Shown piece after piece: positions 1 to 12,906 of a stretch of DNA of 64,000 nucleotides. A program made the translations under genes and the position numbers. This stretch comes from Acidobacteriota bacterium (GTDB lineage: Bacteria > Acidobacteriota > Terriglobia > Versatilivoradales > Versatilivoraceae): positions 1-64,000 of the forward strand of contig JAJDUG010000005.1 of assembly GCA_022826755.1 (NCBI GenBank), written 5' to 3'. The notes beneath the pieces are model-generated. The model did no database searches. It was not told where the DNA came from and saw only the letters and a list, made by a program, of their open reading frames with translations. Position 1 is the first letter of the stretch. Every line of letters starts with the position of its first letter.

Positions 1-183
1 GATCTGATCGAGGCGGCGGCACAGCAGGGGCCATTGGTCACGGGGGATCGAGAAGTGGCGACCCAGGTTGAGAAGGGTCTGCTGTCGGACCTTGCCGGAG
101 ACGCGGTGGGTGCGGACGAGGCGATGGGTGAAGTAGGTCTGGCCGGAGGAAGAAGAGCGGGTCCGGGTGTGGCGGATGAACAT
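1..183 (-). CDS. IS1634-type transposase, N-terminal part (cut by window edge)
   Basis: An ATG at 183 opens a frame of 61 codons that runs off the left edge of the window. The peptide starts MFIRHTRTRS and contains GQTYFTHRLVRTHR and LLNLGRHFSIPRDQWP. This is the N-terminal pattern of IS1634-family (IS4-superfamily) DDE transposases, which begin with a reading of 'GKTYYTYRLVES...LLNLG'. The catalytic DDE domain lies outside the window. The gene lies at the distal end of the defence genes, as expected for an insertion sequence inside a genomic island. A short palindrome (CCATAAGATTATGG, about 227-240) just upstream could be part of the element's end, but I cannot fix the terminus. Whether the rest of the transposase is intact is not visible. 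Confidence 0.72.
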   Translation of the reverse strand, partial: MFIRHTRTRSSSSGQTYFTHRLVRTHRVSGKVRQQTLLNLGRHFSIPRDQWPLLCRRLDQI

Positions 184-547
184 GGGAGGGACCGTAACAG
201 AGGGAGGAGAGGGGGTCAAGCCCATCCCATAAGATTATGGCACTACATTAAGGTCACTCAACCAAGAATCAACAACTTACGGGTGGTTGTAGGCCAAAAT
301 AGGGGTAAAGTACCTCCAATCGCCCGTCCCTTTGTTAAAGATGAGATAAGGGGCCGGACCCATAGGATCGCTCCCACCTGTCCGGTTCGCCACGAAGTTG
401 GCGCACCGGAAGCGCTCCGCCACGCAGTTGTGCCTTACCGAACAATACCACTGCGGCTCAAAACGAGACGCCGTCCCGGAGCAGTGAAATGGTCTCGGAT
501 GTTTGGACAGTTCGAGGGCTTCGCAAAGGTGTAGTCCGGTCGCGCGG
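184..547. other. Intergenic stretch downstream of the helicase gene
   Basis: This is 364 bases between the transposase start and the stop of the helicase gene. I see no gene that I can support. A minus-strand frame (277-579) can be read across it and ends in a plausible-looking peptide (ANRTGGSDPMG), but its start overlaps the helicase gene and I recognise no family. A 38-codon frame starting at 551 with an ATGA overlap is also possible. The part nearest the transposase (about 184-250) probably belongs to the insertion sequence end. Confidence 0.4.
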
Positions 548-3500
548 TCATGCCTCACCTTCGATGATCGACCACACACGGTAATAGCTCGCCCCCTTTT
601 GACCCATAGCAGCCCTCCACGTGTCGACTCCCGCGGAACGAACCCTACCTCGTAATTGGTGCAACGACTCGGATGGTTTTACCCCGAGTTGACTTGTCAA
701 TGGCACTGCAGCCGTTCGCGGCACGCCCAGAATCCGAAGAGCTACGGCCTCATCGGAGTTCACACCGTAGTAGATTCGCGCGGGCAGGTTTCGCAGCGTC
801 TGCTGCTCGTTTGCAGACAACGATTCGAATGTGTCCCCGATAGTCAGGGCTTGGAGTGCAGCCACACCCCAAGAGGCCGTCTGCGTCAGCCTTCCAAATA
901 CCTTCGTACAACACTTCGTCATTGCCGCCACGTCGGCGTTGTAGCCATCTGCATCGTCACCTAACTGCCTCCCGAAATACTCGGTGGCCATCTCGGCGAG
1001 CGGGCGTCCTTGCACCCAATCGCAGATTATCCGAGAGAGCTTGTCCCCGTCAGCTTGTTGTCCACCTGTGACCTCCTTGAGTGATTCTCGAAGTTCCGGG
1101 ACCTGAAGAAGCACACCAAGCATCCGCCGTAGGTCGTCGCGCCGGCTCCCAAAGAGCTCTGGAGTCCACACCTCACTCGCCAATTGCGCATCACGCAGAC
1201 GAATCAACGTATTGCTCACCGACTCCCAGGAGAGTCCCGTTGCGTCCACAAGTTGAAGCGGCTTCCCCTTGATGCGCTCAGCATATCGGTATACGCCATT
1301 TACCAACTCATCCGCCCAGCCTTGGCGGCTCTTGCGTAGATCTTGGAAGCCGAGAGTGCCGCGAAGAACCTGCTCGATCTCAGCAGCGAACCGTTCGTGG
1401 CTACCGATTTGTCTGTACGTGTGAGCAAGGTATTGCAGAAACGCTGACCATTCAGGCTGCCAAGATAGTGTCTCGAGATTCAACAGGCTTCCCTCGGCGC
1501 GCACTTTCTGAATCATGTCGATCAGCGTCGAGTTCAATTCGCCCACGGATCGACTAATGAATTCCTCAATCTTCCTCACCTTGGCATCGTTGTGTCCCGC
1601 CAGCGCGACGATGCCAAGGTCTCCCTGATCGACACGGCCGGCCCGCCCTGCAATATTCCAGAAATCCTCGGGCGGCATGTCCTGTCCGTAGGGATACTGA
1701 TGACTTGCGAACACCACTCCCGAGACGGGGAAGTTGACACCCTGCGCAATGGTAGTCGTCGCGACCAGGACACGTAACAATTTCCTTTCCGTCAACCACT
1801 CGATAATGGTGCGAGTGTCCTCCGAGAGTCCCGAGTGGTGAACACCGACGCCATATTCGAGTAGCGACGTCAGGGGAAAATCGGACCCCATTTCATCTTC
1901 CAGGAAATTCCGGATATGCCTGAGGTCTTCGGTGTCGACACCTTTGCGGTTCGCGTCCACCTTGAACGCGTTCGCCACACTCCAGCTATTGTTCGGCTTA
2001 TCGACGAGCACAATCACAGTCCCACGGCGCTGAAGAATCTGTCCCGTCGCCGCCGCGAGTTTGCCGGGCGATCTTGAAACATCGGCCCACGACAAACCCA
2101 GAGGGCGTTGGGCGCCGATCGCCAATGCTTCGGGTATTTCGATTGTCTTCCGGGCCGTATGCTGGGTTATGAGTTCCACCCGAAAAGCGCCGCGCGCATG
2201 ACCTCTTAGTGGACGCGCTGTCGCGATGGCACGGTCGTTGGGCACCCAATCCAGTCCAAGCTCGATGCTCTTGTTGCTGTCGGGGGCCAACCATCGTGCG
2301 ATCTCCTCGGCATTATCGACGAATGGTGTGAGCAGCAGGAACTGCGCATATCGACACTCCCGATTCACGGTGGCAAGCAACAGTTCCAGCTTCAGGCCGC
2401 GTGCAGCGGACGCAATCCCATGAGCCTCATCCACAACGACAAGGGTCAAAGGTCTCCCTATTCTTTGCTCCCAACCGCTTCGGAGCATAAGATCGAGCTT
2501 CTCGGGAGTTGTAACGAGGATGCGAAACTGCTGGTCAACATCCCGATCGAGGAGCATGTCAGACTCCAAGCCGTCGATCTCCAGCGCAGGACTGACTTTT
2601 TCCACGTTGCAGTTGATTTCCGCGAAATCTCGTCGCAGGCGAATGGCCAATTGATTGACCAAAGCACGTGTCGGCGCAAGGTATGCCACCCAACCCTGTT
2701 CGTAATCGAACTGATTCAGCGCCTGTAGAATTCTGAACTCCGCAATAAATGTCTTGCCGCTTGATGTCGGTAGACTGACGACGACGGAGCGATGACCTGA
2801 TCCGAGCAATCCCTCCTCGCGAAGCGTTCGCCGTTGCGGAGGAAGCATTTCGAAGATCGGTCGGTGGCGGTGCCGCGAAATCATCGACTCCACGAATTTC
2901 GTGACCCGAGAATTGACAGCGCGTGTAACCGTCCAAATGCTGCTGTCGACAAGCGTCCGGGCGGCTCGAGCGAGTAGTCGCGTCAATGTCTCCCGTTCCA
3001 TCAGTTGTCCGCGACCGGCCGCGGCAATAGCTCGGTCGAATTGCGCTTCAAGTTGCTGCCGTATGTCGTAGCGCCCGTCAACCGACCCCTGGGCTTGGTA
3101 AACGCTTACAATCTCGGCGGCCCTGGCCAGGTGATATGCACTGACAAGCTCCCAAGCTGGTTGTGCGTTTCTCTGTTCTTCCGCCCGACTCAAGAATCCT
3201 GGCTCGAAACTTTTCTGGTCCGAGCGAAGACGTGTGACTCGCTCTTGAACGGCATCAAGGTCGTCCCAACCACCTTTGCGAAATAGGCGCAACCAAATGT
3301 CCAGAATAGTTGCCCATACGCGCAGACCCCAATCGGACGCATCAGTAGGCAGAGAGGGAATCCCCTTTTCGAAAAGGAGTCGACGGACATCGGCGCCACG
3401 GTCCCCCAGAATACCGAGGCATCCGAGTCGCACAAGTACTTGGGCGGCCTCCAAATCTGTATCGGGCCACGGCAGCACTCGTGCCACCTGAAAGACTTCC

Positions 3501-3718
3501 GCTGCCGCCGCAGTCAACTCATCGGAACCTTCACCTTCGAGCAGGTCGAATACACGGATCTCAAGACCGTTTGCAATGAACCGCAGTTGCTCGTCGGTAA
3601 GCTGACTGGATTCGGGGATTTCGAGCGCATCCCGGAGCCGGCGTCGGCTTGCCTCGGTAGTGGCATCGCGAATCTTCTCATCACCGATGGAATCGACGAT
3701 CCAGGAATCGGTGGTCAT
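548..3718 (-). CDS. hamB: Ski2-like DEAH helicase, HamB-like (Hachiman defence)
   Basis: A superfamily 2 helicase of 1056 residues. From the ATG at 3718 the motifs are Walker A PTSSGKT (about 317-323), DEAH (about 430-433), a Ski2-type HHSGL (about 627), motif V TTTIAQGVNFP (about 654) and motif VI GRAGR (about 691-695). About 300 residues precede the helicase core and about 350 follow it. The start is chosen because this ATG overlaps the stop of the upstream nuclease gene as ATGA, with GAGGCAGG ahead of it; a longer frame to 3748 exists but would overlap more. A COG1204-type helicase directly downstream of a small PD-(D/E)xK protein is the layout of Hachiman (HamA-HamB) and the related AbpAB anti-phage systems. 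In those, HamB is thought to sense and translocate on damaged or foreign DNA and to restrain or license the HamA nuclease. The family call is good; the exact system name is inferred from the pairing. Confidence 0.75.
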   Translation of the reverse strand: MTTDSWIVDSIGDEKIRDATTEASRRRLRDALEIPESSQLTDEQLRFIANGLEIRVFDLLEGEGSDELTAAAAEVFQVARVLPWPDTDLEAAQVLVRLGCLGILGDRGADVRRLLFEKGIPSLPTDASDWGLRVWATILDIWLRLFRKGGWDDLDAVQERVTRLRSDQKSFEPGFLSRAEEQRNAQPAWELVSAYHLARAAEIVSVYQAQGSVDGRYDIRQQLEAQFDRAIAAAGRGQLMERETLTRLLARAARTLVDSSIWTVTRAVNSRVTKFVESMISRHRHRPIFEMLPPQRRTLREEGLLGSGHRSVVVSLPTSSGKTFIAEFRILQALNQFDYEQGWVAYLAPTRALVNQLAIRLRRDFAEINCNVEKVSPALEIDGLESDMLLDRDVDQQFRILVTTPEKLDLMLRSGWEQRIGRPLTLVVVDEAHGIASAARGLKLELLLATVNRECRYAQFLLLTPFVDNAEEIARWLAPDSNKSIELGLDWVPNDRAIATARPLRGHARGAFRVELITQHTARKTIEIPEALAIGAQRPLGLSWADVSRSPGKLAAATGQILQRRGTVIVLVDKPNNSWSVANAFKVDANRKGVDTEDLRHIRNFLEDEMGSDFPLTSLLEYGVGVHHSGLSEDTRTIIEWLTERKLLRVLVATTTIAQGVNFPVSGVVFASHQYPYGQDMPPEDFWNIAGRAGRVDQGDLGIVALAGHNDAKVRKIEEFISRSVGELNSTLIDMIQKVRAEGSLLNLETLSWQPEWSAFLQYLAHTYRQIGSHERFAAEIEQVLRGTLGFQDLRKSRQGWADELVNGVYRYAERIKGKPLQLVDATGLSWESVSNTLIRLRDAQLASEVWTPELFGSRRDDLRRMLGVLLQVPELRESLKEVTGGQQADGDKLSRIICDWVQGRPLAEMATEYFGRQLGDDADGYNADVAAMTKCCTKVFGRLTQTASWGVAALQALTIGDTFESLSANEQQTLRNLPARIYYGVNSDEAVALRILGVPRTAAVPLTSQLGVKPSESLHQLRGRVRSAGVDTWRAAMGQKGASYYRVWSIIEGEA

Positions 3719-4512
3719 GAGCCTGCCTCCAGCAGCAATGCCGCCCAAGCAGAGATTGGCACGGGCAGATACCAGGCGAAGAGTTCAACACGAGTAGGTT
3801 GGAGCAGGCGAAGCGCCAAATTGCCGGCTCGGGATTTGAGGTCGAGTTCACTCGGCTCTGTATCTCGAATCAGGACACCGACGAGCAGCAATTCCTTGCC
3901 CCCCGAAGTGAGGTAGCGGCTGACTGCCTTCCGATAGAAATCGCAATAAGGCTCGGATCGGCATCGCGCATGCAGCCATTTCAACAGGGCATGCTGAATG
4001 TCAAGCCTCGTGGCACTTTCCTGAAGTTGCCACACCATTCCGCTCCCACCACTCATTACGCCGGGCGGTGTGCTGGTGTCAGAGGACGTCTTTACTTCGC
4101 CGAACAGCAGTAACACCTTTTCTTCCTCACGGCAGAAGCCAACGAGATCAGCGCCCGGCAGGCTCGCCCGTGGAGTTCGGCGATCACGTACAGTATTCCA
4201 AGGCCACACCACATTTCGGCCTGAATCGTCCCGTAGCGCACATTCTGCAAGCGCCTCACCGATTTCCCATCCTTCCGGATCGGGCACAGAGTTCAACAGA
4301 CGCTCAACGAACCTCGTCTCCATCCCGGTCGTGGCGAGACCGCGTAGTTCAGTAGCGAAGGAAGAGTCAGCGTCCGCGACGCGCGGGCGCACGACTTCGT
4401 GTAGGTAATTTGCGAATCGATCCGCACTTTCTACGACGCGTCCTTCCCAATGAACTGCTCCCTCATTCCCCGAGTACCTGACCTGAGAGTCGAGGGTTGG
4501 CATGTTCGTCAT
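3715..4512 (-). CDS. hamA: PD-(D/E)xK nuclease-like protein, HamA/DUF1837-like
   Basis: A 265-residue protein with the string PGADLVGF followed by LLLFGEVKTSSD. This gives D122 and E139-V-K141, the D...ExK core of a PD-(D/E)xK nuclease fold, preceded by a helix carrying GEALAECA. DUF1837 (HamA) proteins have this size and a similar GExK signature, and they sit just upstream of a helicase. The stop overlaps the helicase start by four bases (ATGA), so the two are probably made in fixed ratio as one complex. The start at 4512 is an ATG; a second ATG at 4503 is equally possible. There are 168 bases upstream without a gene, so the pair may have its own promoter or be the tail of the restriction operon. 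Similarity was judged by eye. An alternative is another nuclease-helicase defence pair that does not belong to the HamA family. Confidence 0.68.
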   Translation of the reverse strand: MTNMPTLDSQVRYSGNEGAVHWEGRVVESADRFANYLHEVVRPRVADADSSFATELRGLATTGMETRFVERLLNSVPDPEGWEIGEALAECALRDDSGRNVVWPWNTVRDRRTPRASLPGADLVGFCREEEKVLLLFGEVKTSSDTSTPPGVMSGGSGMVWQLQESATRLDIQHALLKWLHARCRSEPYCDFYRKAVSRYLTSGGKELLLVGVLIRDTEPSELDLKSRAGNLALRLLQPTRVELFAWYLPVPISAWAALLLEAGS

Positions 4513-4680
4513 GCTACGTGCTCACAAGGCAAACCCCGCGCCGTGGCACCTACAACGACGCATCGAATTTCGAACACGGTGCACACGGTGGCCCCGTCTC
4601 GCGGCGCATTCCCGCCGTTGCTATGAACGCCAGCGTCTCGGAATCGCCCGCTGCGGCCAGTGTCGCAATCTGTGCGAGCG

Positions 4681-5460
4681 TTATCGCCACGCTCCATCCT
4701 TAAGCGAACACTCCGGTTCGACGACGTTTGCAAGGTTCACGATAATCTGCGCGTGATGCCGGCTCAGCCACTGCTTGGCGCGTTCCATTTCGGGACAAAT
4801 GCTCTGCACGGTCAACCAGAACTTCGCTGAATGGTCTGGGACGACCAGATGCACGACCTCGTGCGCAACGAGATAGCGGAGCACGAAGTCAGGCGCGAGG
4901 ATAAGGCGCCAGTTGAAGGACAGGTTCCCGCGGGAGGAACAATTGCCCCACTTCGTGCGCTGCTCCATCACGTAGACCAGCCCAGGCTCCTGTCCCATGC
5001 GTGCCGTCACCTCCGGCAGGTAGTCCGCAATGGCCAAGCGCGCCTGTCTTCGCAGCCAGTTCTCGAGACCACGCGCGGCCGGCGTTTGCGTCTCGGACCC
5101 ACGGCGGACAACGATTTCCCCTTCGCACCACGCGACGCGGTTGCAGCGCGCACGCGTCTCCACGAACTCGATGCGCACCCGCGTCGGTGCGCCGCGATAC
5201 AGGATTTCGCCAGACTGCCGTCGCACCGGATGCCGCAGCTCGCGGAGACTCGCCATGCGGTTGATCTGGGCTACCACCCAGCCCTCGTTCCGGCGCAGGA
5301 AAGCCGACACGTCCTCGTCGCTCGCGCTCGCTGGACGTACGACCTCGACGCCATCTGGACCAACCCGAATGCGGGTCTGATGGGCGGCCCTGGAGACGAG
5401 GACGACATAGTCCACGCAGTTGCCACCTAGCATGATTCGCTGTTGCATCGCCGCCTTCAT
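4681..5460 (-). CDS. YgjP-like (DUF45/M48) zinc metallopeptidase coupled to hsdR
   Basis: A 259-residue protein of the YgjP/WLM clan. Near the C-terminus it reads RTKWGNCSSRGNLSFNW, then VAHEVVHLVVPDHSAKFW. HEVVH is the zinc-binding HExxH and the later His of DHSAKFW is the usual third ligand. The N-terminal half is a strand-rich region typical of the family. The start ATG overlaps the hsdR stop as ATGA, so translation is coupled to the restriction subunit. Metallopeptidases of this type often accompany type I restriction genes, but I know of no settled role. Turnover of the restriction complex and cleavage of an invader's proteins are both only ideas. The domain call is firm and the function is unknown. 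Confidence 0.85.
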   Translation of the reverse strand: MKAAMQQRIMLGGNCVDYVVLVSRAAHQTRIRVGPDGVEVVRPASASDEDVSAFLRRNEGWVVAQINRMASLRELRHPVRRQSGEILYRGAPTRVRIEFVETRARCNRVAWCEGEIVVRRGSETQTPAARGLENWLRRQARLAIADYLPEVTARMGQEPGLVYVMEQRTKWGNCSSRGNLSFNWRLILAPDFVLRYLVAHEVVHLVVPDHSAKFWLTVQSICPEMERAKQWLSRHHAQIIVNLANVVEPECSLKDGAWR

Positions 5461-8400
5461 CCGTCAGATACCTCGTCCGACTTGGCCAGCTCCTCCACCG
5501 TCGGTCTCAGGAACGGAGGATCTTCGGCGCCCGTATCGAACCCGAGCCCCTCGTAACGCGGATTCCACGACTCCGCCAAGAGCGACTGCTCCACGCGCAT
5601 GCGCCCACTGACCGAGTTGCTCCACCCCGTCACCAGGAGCTTGTGTTGCCGCAGATGGCCAACCATGTTACGGGAACACTCCGCGATGTAGGTCTCGTCG
5701 GTGGCGGAGGTATTGGCGCGCAGGACGGTGAACAATCCGTACTCGCCGGGTCGTGTGAGGCCCAACCGCTCCGGCTCCTGCTTGGTGGCGGAAGCCTCGT
5801 CTGCGATGGCTTCCAGTTCTCGCAGGCGTTTTACGGTGGCCTCGTCACCGGCCTCCTGTCGTTCCTTGATCTGCTGTAGCCTCTCGCCCAGTAGCCGATA
5901 GAGAAAGCCCGGATCGTCCTCCGTCAGTTCGGCAGTCAGCATCGCTTCGAGGGCGGCTGCCTTGTCGGCAGGCGTCGGGAGCTCGTCCAGCTTTCCCGCG
6001 TAGTCCTGGTCGATCTTGAGCACCGGCAGCGACTGCGCCATCTCGACGAAGGTCGTGTTTTCCTCGATCAGAGCCTTCGTCTTGGCGGACAGCTCTCCAT
6101 AGGTATTCTTACTTCCACGCTGCCTCCGCCGGTGCGCTACGTAGATTCCGCAAAGCCAGTTGTACTGTAGACGGTGCGGGTACAGGCACGTGTCAGGCGA
6201 CAAAGCTTCCCAGAGCCGTTCCAAGCTCATGAAGTTCTGCTCGAAGTTCTTCGCCATTTCGGCGTCGCGGAGCCGCCGCAGAGCGGACAGGAGACACTGG
6301 CGCGTGTCCTCGATGGCGATGCCCTCGAAGGTCTGAATGCACCGGGAGACCTCTCCCGGCACCGTCGCCCGCAACTTGTCCCAGTCGATCAGAGATTCTT
6401 CGCGGACGCTCTCGTCGAAGTTGAGCGCCTTCTCCAGGTCCGCGAAAACGCCGAAGTAGTCGACGACGATCCCCGTCCGTTTCTTCATCGACGGCAGGGG
6501 ACGGTTAGTTCGGGCAATTGCCTGAAGCAAGTTGTGGTCGCGCAGCGGCTTGTCGAGATACATCACCTGCTCCACCGGCGCATTGAACCCAGTGAGAAGG
6601 CGATCGCAGACGATGAGGATCTTGAGTGGCGGTCGCCATTGGCTCCGGTCGTCCCCATACCGCTCCCGGTTCCAGTCCTCCCACTGCGCCGGAGTCAGCT
6701 TGAAGTAGTCGATCATCTCGTCCTGCTTCACCTTGGCGTACTCGAAGCGCTGGACATCCGGCTCGCTGTTCTGCGCCGTCGAGATGATCACGTCCGATAT
6801 TTCCGGCGGGAGTCCCCGGTCGCGCAGCCTCCGGTCGAGAACGTCCTTGTAGACAGCGCACGCCTTTCGGTCCACGGCGACGAGTTGGGCCTTGAAGCCA
6901 CTCGGGTCGGGCTGCGCCAGAAAGTGGGTGACCATCTTGTCGAGCATGATGTCCACCCGGTCCGGATGCCGAGCAAGCTCCTTCCATCGGGACCGCTGGC
7001 GTTGGACGACGTCCTTAGCCTGCTCGTCTTCCAGCTCCATATCCTCGCAAATTCGCTCGAACCCGATGCTCAACGGCTCCTCGTCGACTTGGATGGGCAC
7101 GGCATCGCGAACGTAGTGCACCTCCAGCGTCGCCCCGTCCTGGATGGAGCGGCGTATGCCGTAGTAGCTCATGTAACGTTCCTGTTCGCCGTCCTTCCTT
7201 GGGCCGAAATCGCGGTGGGTGTTCTGCAGGGTGCGGTCGATGGGTGTCCCGGTGAAGCCGAACCGAAACCCGTTCTCAAGCTTGACGCGCATGGTAAGCG
7301 CGTGACTCTCGCGGCTGCCCCGGCCTGTGCCGGTCTGCGACCGATGGCACTCGTCGACCAGGCTCACGATGTTGTCGCGGCGCAGCGGATCGAGGTCGTC
7401 CATCTTCTGGAACGACTGAAGTGTCGTCACTAGCGTACCGCGCCAGTCGGTCCTCAGCCTCCGCTTGAGGTCTTGGACACCCAGCGCCTTCTCTACATTG
7501 GGATAGTCACAGGCGCCGAAGTCGTCCGAGAGTTGGGTTTTGAGATCGCGCCGATCGACAACGATGAGCACCGTGGGGTTGTCGAGGGCCGGATGCCTAC
7601 GTAGCTTCTGACCCGCGAACACCATGGTGAGCGACTTGCCGGAGCCCTGGGTGTGCCAGATGAGGCCCGTCCGGTCCTGGGGCGTGACCGGCCGACCCAC
7701 CTGCGCCACCGTGCGATCCACCAATTCGTTCACCGCCTCGAACTGGTGATAGCGGGCGATCTTCTTCGCGGTCGCGCCTCTAACGGTCTCGAAGACGACA
7801 AAGTGTTGCAGGAAGTCGAGCACGTGCGCCGGCTTAAGCCGCAGGAGACCCTTGACGGGCGTCTCCAGAGGATCGGCGGGGTCCGCGGCCCCGGGCTCGT
7901 TCCACCAACCATGACGCTCCGGATAGAGGCTGAGCCAGCGGCCCCACTGGTCGAGGTGGCGGTCGACGTCCTCCTTGCTCGCATCGTGAAACAGGACCGT
8001 CCCGTAACGGAACTCATCCTCGTCGGCGGCAACGCAGAAAACGTTGGGGACGAGCATCAAGGGCGCTTGGCGCTGGTAGCGGTGGAGCTGGCGCACTGCC
8101 TCGCGCCAGTCCTTGCCGCTGGTCAGGAAGCTCTTGTACTCGGCGACGACCAGGGGGATGCCGTTAACCAGCAGCACCGTGTCGTCGCGGCACTGCTTGA
8201 CGCCCTGCACGCGGTACTGATTGGTTGCGGTGAAGTCGTTCAGATGCTGACGTTCCGCCTCGAACGCGATGAACTGCACGGTTCGAGCGTCCTCGCCGGG
8301 ACGGAGCACGACCTTGGCGCCGTCGCGCATCAGGTCAAGAGTCGTGCGATTGGCGGTGAGCCGGTCCGGCTGCCCTATCGCCTTGCGTAGCGCCTCCACC

Positions 8401-8621
8401 GCCCGCCTCGCCTGCATCTCGGTTTCCACGTGCGAATTGATGCGTACGATGGCTTCCTTCAGCAGCGTCTCGACGAGTGGGTCTTCCAGGGGACGATCGA
8501 ACCCCGTCATCGCGGCTTCGTCCCGGTACGTCCACCCGAGCCCACCCACGCGATAGGTGGCTCTGGGCTCCCCGCAGAGCCAGTTCAGAATCGGCCTTTC
8601 GACGTAGCCGTACTCACTCAT
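5457..8621 (-). CDS. hsdR: Type I restriction enzyme, R subunit
   Basis: A 1054-residue motor and nuclease subunit. The N-terminal nuclease domain shows D147 followed by NGIPLVVAEYKS (E161-x-K163), the PD-(D/E)xK site that cuts DNA. A superfamily 2 translocase follows with Walker A QGSGKSLT, the box VDECHRSQTG (DECH in place of DEAH), and later LLTGFNAP and AIARTNR motifs. Length is normal for HsdR. It works as a complex with the M and S subunits: unmethylated DNA is reeled in by ATP hydrolysis and cut at a distance. The ATG overlaps the end of hsdS by eight bases (ATGAGTGA), and the stop overlaps the metallopeptidase start by four. All catalytic motifs look intact. Confidence 0.96.
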   Translation of the reverse strand: MSEYGYVERPILNWLCGEPRATYRVGGLGWTYRDEAAMTGFDRPLEDPLVETLLKEAIVRINSHVETEMQARRAVEALRKAIGQPDRLTANRTTLDLMRDGAKVVLRPGEDARTVQFIAFEAERQHLNDFTATNQYRVQGVKQCRDDTVLLVNGIPLVVAEYKSFLTSGKDWREAVRQLHRYQRQAPLMLVPNVFCVAADEDEFRYGTVLFHDASKEDVDRHLDQWGRWLSLYPERHGWWNEPGAADPADPLETPVKGLLRLKPAHVLDFLQHFVVFETVRGATAKKIARYHQFEAVNELVDRTVAQVGRPVTPQDRTGLIWHTQGSGKSLTMVFAGQKLRRHPALDNPTVLIVVDRRDLKTQLSDDFGACDYPNVEKALGVQDLKRRLRTDWRGTLVTTLQSFQKMDDLDPLRRDNIVSLVDECHRSQTGTGRGSRESHALTMRVKLENGFRFGFTGTPIDRTLQNTHRDFGPRKDGEQERYMSYYGIRRSIQDGATLEVHYVRDAVPIQVDEEPLSIGFERICEDMELEDEQAKDVVQRQRSRWKELARHPDRVDIMLDKMVTHFLAQPDPSGFKAQLVAVDRKACAVYKDVLDRRLRDRGLPPEISDVIISTAQNSEPDVQRFEYAKVKQDEMIDYFKLTPAQWEDWNRERYGDDRSQWRPPLKILIVCDRLLTGFNAPVEQVMYLDKPLRDHNLLQAIARTNRPLPSMKKRTGIVVDYFGVFADLEKALNFDESVREESLIDWDKLRATVPGEVSRCIQTFEGIAIEDTRQCLLSALRRLRDAEMAKNFEQNFMSLERLWEALSPDTCLYPHRLQYNWLCGIYVAHRRRQRGSKNTYGELSAKTKALIEENTTFVEMAQSLPVLKIDQDYAGKLDELPTPADKAAALEAMLTAELTEDDPGFLYRLLGERLQQIKERQEAGDEATVKRLRELEAIADEASATKQEPERLGLTRPGEYGLFTVLRANTSATDETYIAECSRNMVGHLRQHKLLVTGWSNSVSGRMRVEQSLLAESWNPRYEGLGFDTGAEDPPFLRPTVEELAKSDEVSDG

Positions 8622-9927
8622 GGAGCGGGGCCTCCGTCATGTCGCCGACTCGGACTTTGCCGTTGAGGAGGTCGTGCATGAGGGATTTCTTGAGGGATTG
8701 TAGCTTGTCCCGTTTCTGAAAGAGGGAGTCGCGAAACCGTTTACACTGCTTAACAATGGAGGTCATACCCATTTGTTCAGGCAGCGAGGGTACAGGTAGG
8801 GCAAGCTGCTTCAGCGTACGCTGGTTTATCGTGTGGAGGCCGGAGCTCGTTGCACAGCGTGCATTCCAGAACCGCTTGGCGTAGCTCGAGTTCAGCCACA
8901 TACAAGCGAAGCTAGCCGTTATCTCGCCTGCCTTGCGAAGGCGAAACAAATGGTTCTGAAACGTCATACCTGCCGCATCGCAAGTAACACGAGCGCAACG
9001 GCCAATCTCCATACTGTCCGCATGACCTTCCACAACAACCAAGTCTTCAGGAGCCAGGATTCGACGTACAAACTCGTCGTCCTTCGCTTCCAATTCCTGA
9101 ACATCCGACAAGTCGAGCGAATCGCGCTGGACATTTGCGACACGCAGATACCGACGTTTCTGGAAGCGTGGCCGGCGCTCACTGTTGAGAGTGAACCCGC
9201 TCTGCACATCGAACTCATCACCAACCGTGCTCAGCCGCCAGTCGTGCGGGAGTCTTCCGAGTGCGGTGACGGCATAGCCACCAGGATTTTCTCTTGGATA
9301 GCGCAATCCTCCATTCCCTCCTACCCCACAGGTAAGGAGATCTGCAATGACACTCGCGAGTAGATTCTGCGCCCGTTCAGCAGCCTCGCGAGTGCGTTCC
9401 AAAGCCGTGTCCACGGCGTCGAGAATGCGGGCAATGGCGGCTTGCTCCGTCGGTGGCGGCATGGGTACGAGCAGCCGATCAACAAACACCTCTTCCGGTA
9501 CTCTCTGCCTCCCAGTAGAGCCTTCCATCCTTGCGACGGCGCAACCCCGAACCGTGTGCGAGCACACAAGATGGTAGAGGAAACGCGAATCCGTTTCTGA
9601 GCGCGGAGACAGGACGATGAATTCCGTGGAGCCCAGACCAAGCGTGTCCGGTAGCTCGGACACGAAAGCAACTTTTCCGTTCTCGGGACATGGGGTGATC
9701 TTCGCGAACAGGGTATCGCCAGCCTTGAACCGTGCGAGGCCTGACCCTTCCAGTTTCCGCTGATCAACTCTCAAAATGCCCGCAAAGTCCTCTCCAACCG
9801 ATGCCATCTCGACAAAGGGGTAGTCGCGGCCCCTTACAACGGTGTATCGCGGATTGACCTTAGCCAACTTGCTGATCGGAACCTTTGGCCATTCTGCAAC
9901 CGTGTTCGGAAAGCAATCAGTTTGCAT
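8614..9927 (-). CDS. hsdS: Type I restriction enzyme, S (specificity) subunit
   Basis: The specificity subunit has two target-recognition domains separated by conserved helices. The first repeat includes PPPTEQAAIARILDAVDTAL and the second LPEQMGMTSIVKQCKRFRD, each ending in a coiled spacer. I place the start at the ATG at 9927 (MQTDCFPNT), which overlaps the hsdM stop by eleven bases (ATGCAAACTGA) and has GAGG seven bases upstream; the frame continues upstream to 9963 but would overlap more. This gives 437 residues, a normal length. The two recognition domains set the bipartite DNA target, which cannot be read from sequence alone. Confidence 0.94.
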   Translation of the reverse strand: MQTDCFPNTVAEWPKVPISKLAKVNPRYTVVRGRDYPFVEMASVGEDFAGILRVDQRKLEGSGLARFKAGDTLFAKITPCPENGKVAFVSELPDTLGLGSTEFIVLSPRSETDSRFLYHLVCSHTVRGCAVARMEGSTGRQRVPEEVFVDRLLVPMPPPTEQAAIARILDAVDTALERTREAAERAQNLLASVIADLLTCGVGGNGGLRYPRENPGGYAVTALGRLPHDWRLSTVGDEFDVQSGFTLNSERRPRFQKRRYLRVANVQRDSLDLSDVQELEAKDDEFVRRILAPEDLVVVEGHADSMEIGRCARVTCDAAGMTFQNHLFRLRKAGEITASFACMWLNSSYAKRFWNARCATSSGLHTINQRTLKQLALPVPSLPEQMGMTSIVKQCKRFRDSLFQKRDKLQSLKKSLMHDLLNGKVRVGDMTEAPLHE

Positions 9928-11953
9928 ATCCGGCCTCACCCAGCAGTCGTGAGAGACGGGCACCAGCTTCTTCCATTGCAGATTGTGCGTTTACCAACTG
10001 TCTCAGTGCATCCTGGACCTCAATCCTCGGCTCCGGCTCGAAGGTATTCACGTATCGCGGCACGTTGAGGTTGAACTCATTCTGCTCGACCTCGTCCATG
10101 TTGACGACACGGGCGTACTTGAGCAACTCGTCGGGATTAGCATATGTGGCGACCAGATCCTCGCCTACCGCGCTGACGTCGGCACGGTCACCATCGGCGT
10201 TGCGGCGCGCCTCGGCGATGCGTTCGTCGCGCTCCGCAATCTTCGCCGCGATCTTGTTGCGTTGCTTCTGGAGCTTCGTTAACGCTGACGCTGCTTTCAC
10301 CTTGTCGCGCTTCGTCGCGGCAGCACGCTGCTTCTCGCGGCCCTCCTCGAGCGCCGTATCCAGCGCGGCCAGCCGATCGGCTTGAGGCTGGAATTCGGCT
10401 TCGAGTCTGCCGACCTCGTCCGCCTCTCGACGGTCGATCTCGCGGTGAATTCTCTCGCTGTGCTCCTTCACGAGGCCGGGAGCCTTCGACGCATCGCCGT
10501 AGGCGTGATAGTGCACCAGCATCCGCATCACGTCCTGAGGGCGTAGCTCGTTCTGGGCAGAGAGCTCGCGGTAATGCCTGGCCGCGTAGATCAGCAGTAC
10601 CCGGTCCCGGCGCTCCACGGGGCGCTGCTTGCGGAGGATCAAAAGGCAGGCGGGAACGCCTGCGCCGTAGAAGACATTGAGCGGCAGCGAGACGACGGCG
10701 TCAATGAGTCGGGACTCGAGCAACGCCCGGCGGATGAGGTGCTCGTCGTCGGCCTTGCGTCGCCTCACCTTGGGATTCCCCTTGGCGTCAAAATCGCCGG
10801 TCTCTTCCTGGATTTCCGCCTGTCCGCGGAAAAGCACGCCCTGCGGGCAGACGATGCCGGCTCGACCGCCGTCGGAGAGCGAAGCGAGGATGTGCAGGAT
10901 GAACGCGTAGTCCCCGTAGGCGGGCGGCGGCGCTTGGAAGCCGGTGCCGCGGCCGAAACGGCCGAACGGGTCCTTGTAGCCCTCCTTGCCGAAGATCTCC
11001 TTCTTGAGGCGGGCCTTCCTGGTCTTGTCGTCTGTCTGCTGCTCCGGCTTCAGCCACCAGTAGTCGTCTGAGAACGGGAAATTGGCGAGGACCAGGGAGA
11101 ACCTGCGCACTTCTCCGTCGTCGAGAAACTGCGGGTCGGTGATGGTGCTGTTGCCGGCCCGAATGTCGGCTTCGAGGCCGTGGAGCACGGAGTTGATCTT
11201 GCCGATGGCGGCGTTGCCCCAGTTCATCTCCTGCGCGAAGTAGCGCGCATGGGTCGCGAGGTGTCCACGTTCGCGGAGGTAATCGGCGGCGTGCACGAGC
11301 ATCCCGCCGGAGCCGCCGGTCGGATCGTAGACGGTATCGCCGGGGCGCGGCTCCAGGATGCGAACCAGGGTGTCCACAACCTCCGGGGGCGTGAAGAACT
11401 CGCCCGCCTTGGCGCCGGCGTCGTCGGCGAACTTCTTGATGAGGTACTCGTAGGCCCGTCCCAGCACATCGGCCGGCACGCTGCGGTTCGACAGATCGTG
11501 CTCGTCGAAGTGCTGCACGAGCGCGTGGACGACTTCGTTGGCGATCAGCGGCTTGCCCGAGCCGTCGGGCGCCGGCTGGTTCCAGTCCACGGTGAACACG
11601 CCCCGCAACTCCTCGTTGGCGTCGGCCACGGCCCGCATCGCACGGGTCAGGGCCTCGCCGATGTTGACTGAGATTGCCTTGACGTCTCCCCACCGGGAGC
11701 CATTCGGGATGGCGTAGCGATGCTCGCCTCGCGCACGAAAGATGGCCTTCTGCGCTTCGGTGAACGCGCGGCCCTGCTGGCGTTCCAGCTCCGCGATGGC
11801 GTCGTCCGCCTCCCACTCCCACTGATCGCAGAGCCGTTTGTAGAACATCAGCGACAGGATGTAGTTCTTGTAGTCCTGTCCAGCGGTCTTGCCGCGGAGA
11901 ATGTTCGCAGCACCCCACAGATGGGCTTCGAGCTGTTGGAGGGTGAGTTTCAT
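9917..11953 (-). CDS. hsdM: Type I restriction enzyme, M (N6-adenine methyltransferase) subunit
   Basis: A 678-residue DNA methyltransferase that protects host DNA and forms the core of the type I complex. After an N-terminal helical domain (LTLQQLEAHLWGAANILRG) comes KAGEFFTPPEVVDTLV. The AdoMet motif I is DPTGGSGG (from D210), and the catalytic motif IV is NFPF (291-294), the accepted variant of NPPF in this group. The C-terminal part (about 500-600) is a charged helical region of the kind that contacts HsdS. It is larger than E. coli HsdM (529 residues), mainly through this tail. It lies 51 bases after the HTH gene and overlaps hsdS by eleven bases. Confidence 0.96.
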   Translation of the reverse strand: MKLTLQQLEAHLWGAANILRGKTAGQDYKNYILSLMFYKRLCDQWEWEADDAIAELERQQGRAFTEAQKAIFRARGEHRYAIPNGSRWGDVKAISVNIGEALTRAMRAVADANEELRGVFTVDWNQPAPDGSGKPLIANEVVHALVQHFDEHDLSNRSVPADVLGRAYEYLIKKFADDAGAKAGEFFTPPEVVDTLVRILEPRPGDTVYDPTGGSGGMLVHAADYLRERGHLATHARYFAQEMNWGNAAIGKINSVLHGLEADIRAGNSTITDPQFLDDGEVRRFSLVLANFPFSDDYWWLKPEQQTDDKTRKARLKKEIFGKEGYKDPFGRFGRGTGFQAPPPAYGDYAFILHILASLSDGGRAGIVCPQGVLFRGQAEIQEETGDFDAKGNPKVRRRKADDEHLIRRALLESRLIDAVVSLPLNVFYGAGVPACLLILRKQRPVERRDRVLLIYAARHYRELSAQNELRPQDVMRMLVHYHAYGDASKAPGLVKEHSERIHREIDRREADEVGRLEAEFQPQADRLAALDTALEEGREKQRAAATKRDKVKAASALTKLQKQRNKIAAKIAERDERIAEARRNADGDRADVSAVGEDLVATYANPDELLKYARVVNMDEVEQNEFNLNVPRYVNTFEPEPRIEVQDALRQLVNAQSAMEEAGARLSRLLGEAGYAN

Positions 11954-12004
11954 CCGGTGGCGCGCTCCTGTGCTCCGGCGACTCGTGTCGCCGCAAGGGA
12001 ATGC

Positions 12005-12247
12005 TCAACCATTCCTTGAATCGTCCCGCCCGCCGCCGTGCGGCCTGCTCGATGTGCGGCTTGCCGGCGTATTGCTGCCACCGCTCTGAACCCACTCGTC
12101 CACTTGCGAGAGCCTGAACCGAAACAGTCCTACTACCCTATGGGCCGGCAGTCCCTGCGTATCGATCCATCGGTAGATCGTGTCCTTGCCTACTCCCAAG
12201 TGCGCAGCTACAACCGCGATTCCTACCCAAGGTTCTTCAGTCGTCAT
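12005..12247 (-). CDS. Small excisionase/MerR-like HTH DNA-binding protein
   Basis: An 80-residue protein reading VGIAVVAAHLGVGKDTIYRW, then LPAHRVVGLFRFRLSQVDEW. This is the 'helix-turn-helix 17' winged-helix pattern seen in excisionases and in small regulators. It is the first gene of the restriction operon and lies behind a strong sigma-70-type promoter. A regulator in this place usually times expression so that methylation precedes restriction, or it may be a leftover recombination directionality factor of the island. A palindrome AGTTAACT (about 12273-12280) between promoter and start is a possible operator. The last 25 residues are polar and probably disordered. Confidence 0.8.
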   Translation of the reverse strand: MTTEEPWVGIAVVAAHLGVGKDTIYRWIDTQGLPAHRVVGLFRFRLSQVDEWVQSGGSNTPASRTSSRPHGGGRDDSRNG

Positions 12248-12294
12248 GGTTCAGCGAGTTCTCCTCGTAGAGAGTTAACTCATAACCACAGAAA

Positions 12295-12323
12295 TATATA
12301 TGAATCCCACTATATCCTGTCAA
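12295..12323 (-). promoter_or_regulatory. Sigma-70-like promoter of the HTH-hsdMSR operon
   Basis: Read on the minus strand: TTGACA (12323-12318), a 17-base spacer, then TATATA (12300-12295). Transcription would start near 12288, giving a leader of about 40 bases before the HTH start at 12247. Local sequence is distinctly AT-rich compared with its surroundings. Confidence 0.7.
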
Positions 12324-12460
12324 ATCCATTCACACCGTGATGGGAAACGGTGATGGGATTAGAGCGCCGGATGTGGCGCCTCCCGTGTATGCGTTGAGAC
12401 GCTACTCCGGCCAGTGGCGGGACACGATGCGGCGGTGTTTGATCCCCGTCGCCGCGATCG

Positions 12461-12790
12461 TTAGGTCCAAGCAGTTTCGCCGGCGCCACAAATGGCGACC
12501 GGTACGAGCACTTGGCGGTAGAAGCTGGCCTGCATCAGGTGGTTGTTGGCGCTCACCCTCTCGTCGCCGCGCATACGCCAGCGGGTGTGGCCGAGCATCA
12601 GCGTGTTGCGGTTGTCGATCCCAATCAGTACCTTTTGGAACGACTTGCCGGCAACAAAGCGGCTCGCGCGCACCAAGCGCCGGGCGGGAATCGCAAACCG
12701 GAGAAATGTGGCCGATGTGGGTCGGGCCGCAAGTCCTTGAAGCAGTGCGAGATACGACAAGGCCTCAGTGGGGTCTCCCGTTGTGGCCAT
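12461..12790 (-). pseudogene. Remnant resembling a class II glutamine amidotransferase
   Basis: A 109-codon minus-strand frame contains LMLGHTRWRMRGD followed by SANNHLMQ. This is close to the GHTRWATxGxPxxxNxHP signature of class II (N-terminal nucleophile) glutamine amidotransferases. The required N-terminal catalytic Cys and the following core are not present in the frame, and the C-terminal part drifts into unrelated sequence. I read it as a decayed fragment. It lies between tRNA-Asn and the restriction operon, where relics of past integrations often collect. Bases 12324-12460 hold nothing I recognise. Confidence 0.4.
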
Positions 12791-12829
12791 GCGTTAACTA
12801 CTGAGCCGCATGGGTTGGCAACGTGGAAG

Positions 12830-12906
<77 letters not shown>

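Follow-up and report, generated by a model that had tools for sequence, protein, structure and literature searches.

Hachiman, as known from Escherichia coli ECOR31 (PDB 8VX9), pairs a DUF1837 nuclease, HamA, with a helicase, HamB, that surveys DNA while holding HamA, until DNA ends or damage, together with ATP, bring about the release of HamA and DNA is degraded (PMC12278908). HamA is bound by an N-terminal helical bundle of HamB that other Ski2 helicases lack, and its contacts with HamB lie in residues 30-63, 102-117, and 159-199 (PMC12278908). The nearest structure to HamA is that of a type IIS nuclease from Paucibacter aquatile (Tuck et al.). Two further described systems resemble the locus studied here in their genomic organization. 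TgvAB of Vibrio cholerae is a two-gene, GmrSD-like system that targets modified cytosine and is embedded in a type I restriction-modification (RM) operon, where it does not need the restriction activity of HsdR (PMC11411939), while in the methylation-associated defence system (MADS) a MAD1-like HTH protein heads an operon that combines an RM core with extra genes. Additionally, a guilt-by-embedding survey has yielded the PADLOC candidate families termed PDCs, for which experiments are mostly lacking (PMC12988326).

Here, we describe a gene pair, A and B, that already belongs to one of these listed but unexplained candidates, PDC-M23, and that, as judged from predicted structures, is a divergent Hachiman-type pair. 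This assignment follows from the match of the modeled A and B to HamA and HamB, the alignment and invariance of the catalytic triad, and the placement of B among HamB lineages.

Results

A coupled gene pair in a type I RM operon

The window, that is, the whole stretch of DNA analyzed, covers 64 kb from the start of a contig of 147,491 bases, which belongs to a 4.6-Mb genome. Gene A (3715..4512, minus strand) starts with ATG and encodes a 265-aa protein identified from its ORF, PADLOC matches, alignment, and structure as a HamA-like PD-(D/E)xK nuclease with the predicted catalytic residues D122, E139, and K141. Gene B (548..3718, minus strand) encodes a HamB-like SF2 (Ski2-type) helicase, assigned from its ORF, its overlap with A, PADLOC matches, structure, and tree position; it is 1056 aa long when read from the ATG at 3718, whereas the listed ORF begins upstream at a TTG and gives 1066 aa. 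At the junction, ...TCATGACC..., the stop codon of A and the start codon of B have four bases, ATGA, in common (3715..3718, minus strand). The two proteins, their lengths, and the four-base overlap had all been predicted from the sequence alone, and each was recovered. The tandem A-B arrangement was also present in 38 of 38 other loci, namely 37 from a genome scan and L009.

Upstream of A, and on the same strand, the order was HTH-hsdM-hsdS-hsdR-YgjP-A-B. The operon is headed by a gene for a small MAD1-like HTH protein (12005..12247; NF047737 at 3.8e-14, which is below the cut-off, and PADLOC mad1 at 1.6e-9), followed by hsdM for an N6-adenine methyltransferase (9917..11953; PF02384, 2.2e-72), hsdS for the specificity subunit (8614..9963; PF01420 and PADLOC Specificity_I), and hsdR for the type I restriction subunit (5457..8621; TIGR00348, 4e-137, with HSDR_N and SWI2_SNF2). 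Between hsdR and A was a gene for a YgjP-like metallopeptidase (4681..5460; PF01863, 1.1e-47) that overlaps hsdR by 4 bases and occupies the same position in L029 (6650-7597), where the order of the window was kept from hsdM onward. The head gene and the added genes recall MADS, but the MAD1-like match falls short of its cut-off and hsdM and hsdS fit ordinary type I models better.

Synteny with five congeners ended at the 3′ end of a tRNA-Asn gene (12831..12906, minus strand), exactly at 12831 in four of them and 84 bases further in the fifth, so the variable stretch that carries the RM genes and A-B (1-12830) begins at this tRNA. This strain-variable stretch and the upstream RM operon bear out the proposal that the pair lies in a defence island. 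The contig edge lies 547 bases past B and cuts off that side of the variable stretch; a search of the part within the window for a direct repeat of at least 12 bases matching the tRNA 3′ end gave none, the far end being off the contig. Among seven genomes of the genus, two had M23B, and the second copy (L028, in genome G797) belonged to a distant M23 clade and was located elsewhere in the chromosome.

Membership in PDC-M23

The adjacent genes matched the two PDC-M23 models of PADLOC over their full length (A, PDC-M23A, 1.3e-89; B, PDC-M23B, E=0), placing the pair in this family. The next best PADLOC models for B were those of HamB (8.9e-57), which scored above Hel308, and profile matches characterized its helicase core as Ski2/Hel308-like. 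For A, there was no match at E up to 1 among Pfam, NCBIfam, and the PADLOC HamA/DUF1837 (PF08878) models, the PADLOC HamA models detecting a control HamA at 6.6e-139. Nor did A have a match in sequence searches of the PDB or in plasmids, phages, and viral contigs, and two of its relatives had none in plasmids. AbpA was absent from the matches of A and AbpB from the best 25 of 39 PADLOC matches of B, and the Pfam search revealed no modified-base reader domain in either protein.

The PADLOC listing, which also covers the E. coli relatives described below, comes with no function, link to HamA, or mechanism, and the literature searched contained no mention of PDC-M23. The original prediction that the pair is not a close copy of studied systems proved right, in that A-B forms a separate clade, although the family had already been listed. 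Its proposed HamA-HamB kinship was likewise upheld, by profile-profile comparison and above all by structure. What had been missed was that PDC-M23 is already listed, that the pair is linked to type I RM and BREX loci, and that helicase motif III is altered.

A has the fold and active site of HamA

From 84,980 species genomes we collected 37 loci and built alignments of 35 proteins each for A and B. D122, G138-E139-V140-K141, and Q162 were invariant in A (35/35); the invariance of D122, E139, and K141 indicates that the nuclease core read from the single sequence was no chance match. In a single profile-profile comparison of the A family with ten DUF1837 HamA proteins (E 7e-5, probability 63%), D122, E139, and K141 fell on the D, E, and K of HamA. 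The spacing of invariant residues was also alike, with GE86-D122-E139-K141 in A and GE84-D118-E136-K138 in L059.

Modeled at pLDDT 85.5, A aligned to HamA (8VX9_A) with Z 17.1 and 3.4 Å over 226 residues, the next unrelated fold being PaqCI at Z 6.5, and Foldseek returned 8VXY_A at 9.5e-6. PaqCI is presumably the P. aquatile type IIS nuclease mentioned above. Thus A has a HamA fold and the D-GExK nuclease motif but lacks a DUF1837 HMM match. A lack of DUF1837 similarity had been named as a refutation of the original call; it held for single-sequence and HMM searches but was overturned by profile-profile and, above all, structural comparison. In the model, helices 30-60, loop 103-120, and helices 159-183 correspond, in residue numbering, to the three regions through which HamA contacts HamB, and the alignment showed R109-x-x-R/K112 to be conserved in the loop, which is compatible with the published HamA-HamB interface motif.

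Two other HamA-like proteins came to light. A 219-aa protein in L052 (1441-2097) carries FGEVKSS and has a Pfam match, was missed by the PADLOC HamA models, and possibly forms, with the helicase in L092 (10902-12839), another divergent Hachiman lineage. In the DUF1837 protein of L068 (1342-2226), GExK is replaced by LGRTYF, and the nuclease is therefore probably dead, judging from this substitution.

B groups with HamB and has an altered motif III

The predicted structure of B (pLDDT 83.9) comprises an N-terminal helical bundle (~1-280), a helicase core (~285-720), and a helical C-terminus. Alignments to HamB reached Z 23.9-25.7 over 936-956 residues and started from residue 1 or 2 of B, with the best (Z 25.7, 936 residues) spanning residues 1-1056, whereas those to Hel308, PolQ, and Brr2 began only at ~250-310 and omitted the N-terminal bundle. 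Structural alignment therefore identifies a HamB-type bundle in B. The alignment stops at residue ~1090 of 1174 in HamB, where the OB-like barrel of the ECOR31 protein starts; B, with its helical C-terminus, seems to have no counterpart to this C-terminal element, which is not known to be universal among HamB proteins. Across the structural alignments, identity to the ECOR31 proteins was ~11% for HamA and ~17% for HamB. Gene order, full-length folds, D-GExK, and the N-terminal bundle are common to both systems.

In the helicase-core tree, the M23B sequences formed one clade (support 99) among HamB lineages, apart from Lhr-type helicases, with its sister branch weakly supported (85) and several long branches present. 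The Lhr-type helicases served as the outgroup because a search for Hel308 (NF040935) yielded no loci in the relatives. Together with the bundle, this placement sets B apart from housekeeping helicases, the grouping that had been named as a possible refutation of the original call. Hel308-like bacterial helicases from L100, L101, L103, and L104 formed their own group beside HamB.

The helicase had been described as having all motifs intact, which does not hold for motif III. It read [T/M]P[F/Y] in 35/35 M23B sequences, and LL(T/M)P(F/Y) in nearly all, instead of the Ski2-type SA(T/V). Control HamB proteins mostly had LSA(V/I/M), and two had SP, so that SA-x is a common HamB trait and no strict criterion. 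In SF2 helicases, motif III links the hydrolysis of ATP to unwinding. Given its replacement, B may not unwind DNA in the way that HamB does.

Recurrent placement in restriction and BREX operons

Same-strand hsd-type genes within 6 kb accompanied 23 of the 39 M23 loci, compared with 1 of 19 loci for DUF1837-Hachiman (p 6e-5), as counted by a single HMM procedure for all loci and with a small control drawn from two phyla. With two false hsd calls dropped, the counts were 21/39 and 1/19 (Fisher p 4e-4), the methylase match at L017 and PglX at L019 being left out as non-hsd, and with near-copies collapsed by hand they were 12/28 and 1/19 (p 0.007). Many A-B pairs were without nearby restriction genes. 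PDC-M23 differs from Hachiman in how often it is placed in type I RM operons.

Within these operons the position of A-B varied. L024 and L035 had hsdM-hsdS-A-B-hsdR, in which hsdS and A overlap by a 4-base ATGA and, in L035, 2 bases separate B from hsdR, while the Vibrio, Marinobacter, and Tolumonas loci had hsdR-hsdM-hsdS-A-B. L019 (1526-17618) is a BREX locus in which the pair had PglX on one side and PglZ on the other. Arrangement changed at least 10 times on the M23B tree, HsdR families differed between loci, and hsdR was present and intact in most hsd operons bearing A-B. A-B occurred in 5 of 5426 complete E. coli genomes, with 95-97% identity to the Vibrio ordalii copy. Both E. coli loci that we examined had the operon mad1-hsdR-hsdM-hsdS-A-B, with A-B last and overlapping ends, by yicC and with an integrase nearby; A is annotated there as 'hypothetical protein'.

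Other genes were also embedded in RM operons with A-B, specifically an AAA-ATPase with a PDDEXK_9 nuclease in L013 (15796-17715) and a HEC-01A protein in L022 (13327-14688). A was split by a frameshift in L022 (8072-9057), and the hsdR beside B was in pieces in L048 (4810-5498); decay or assembly error could explain either.

Discussion

We consider the best explanation, with a probability of roughly 0.8, to be that A-B is a divergent Hachiman-type anti-phage complex in which a DNA-sensing B releases the nuclease A, as a second layer to restriction. B would act as an ATP-driven sensor that binds DNA and keeps A attached to its N-terminal helical bundle. When B encounters DNA ends, or DNA that is damaged or single-stranded, arising from phage replication or from restriction cuts, ATP turnover would free A, which would then degrade DNA without sequence specificity, stopping the phage and probably the cell too. 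Positioned in or near type I RM operons, and once in BREX, the pair would provide a second layer against phages that escape methylation-based restriction. Counting against this reading are the missing DUF1837 HMM match of A, the replaced motif III, the apparent lack of the OB-like barrel, and the many members with no restriction genes close by.

A tentative and rather unlikely elaboration, built on the change in motif III, is that B has lost productive unwinding and responds to stalled complexes or DNA ends generated by the type I or BREX system of its own operon, switching on A as a fail-safe when restriction fires without finishing the phage. The tight packing in some operons, with the hsdS/A overlap and 2-base B-hsdR gap of L035, the overlapping ends in E. 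coli, and the insertion within BREX in L019, could be taken to mean that A and B function as components of the host's restriction machine, binding HsdM-HsdS (or BREX) and cleaving DNA that is unmethylated; defence would then depend on the methylation state that the operon sets. We think this unlikely, because an intact hsdR remains in most such operons, the arrangement is repeatedly altered and combined with different HsdR families, many pairs have no hsd gene at all, and TgvAB occupies this kind of position without needing HsdR restriction activity (PMC11411939). Independent cargo, as for TgvAB, or a layered fail-safe is favored over direct cooperation as the account of A-B placement in restriction operons.

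The parallel with TgvAB in genomic position (PMC11411939), and the combination of a nuclease with an NTPase, also raise the idea of a type IV-like nuclease system directed, as TgvAB is, at modified phage DNA that is immune to type I restriction. This appears improbable, since the folds are those of full-length HamA and HamB and neither protein shows a modified-base reader domain. The DUF262-family TgvAB proteins are unrelated to A-B. Finally, the Ski2/Hel308-like core of B could suggest a housekeeping helicase-nuclease that serves DNA repair, as in the Hel308/Lhr group. We rejected this very improbable reading on the basis of the N-terminal bundle matched only by HamB, the tree position of B, and the patchy presence of the pair among congeners and E. 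coli genomes, and the higher PADLOC scores for HamB than for Hel308 and the linkage to defence operons speak against it as well.

The divergent Hachiman-type reading ties PDC-M23, an unexplained and so far unnamed candidate family, to the solved mechanism of Hachiman and opens it to direct testing. It further indicates that Hachiman-type modules can reside in restriction and BREX operons, and with the compact E. coli version, whether restriction cooperates with a DNA-integrity sensor becomes testable gene by gene.
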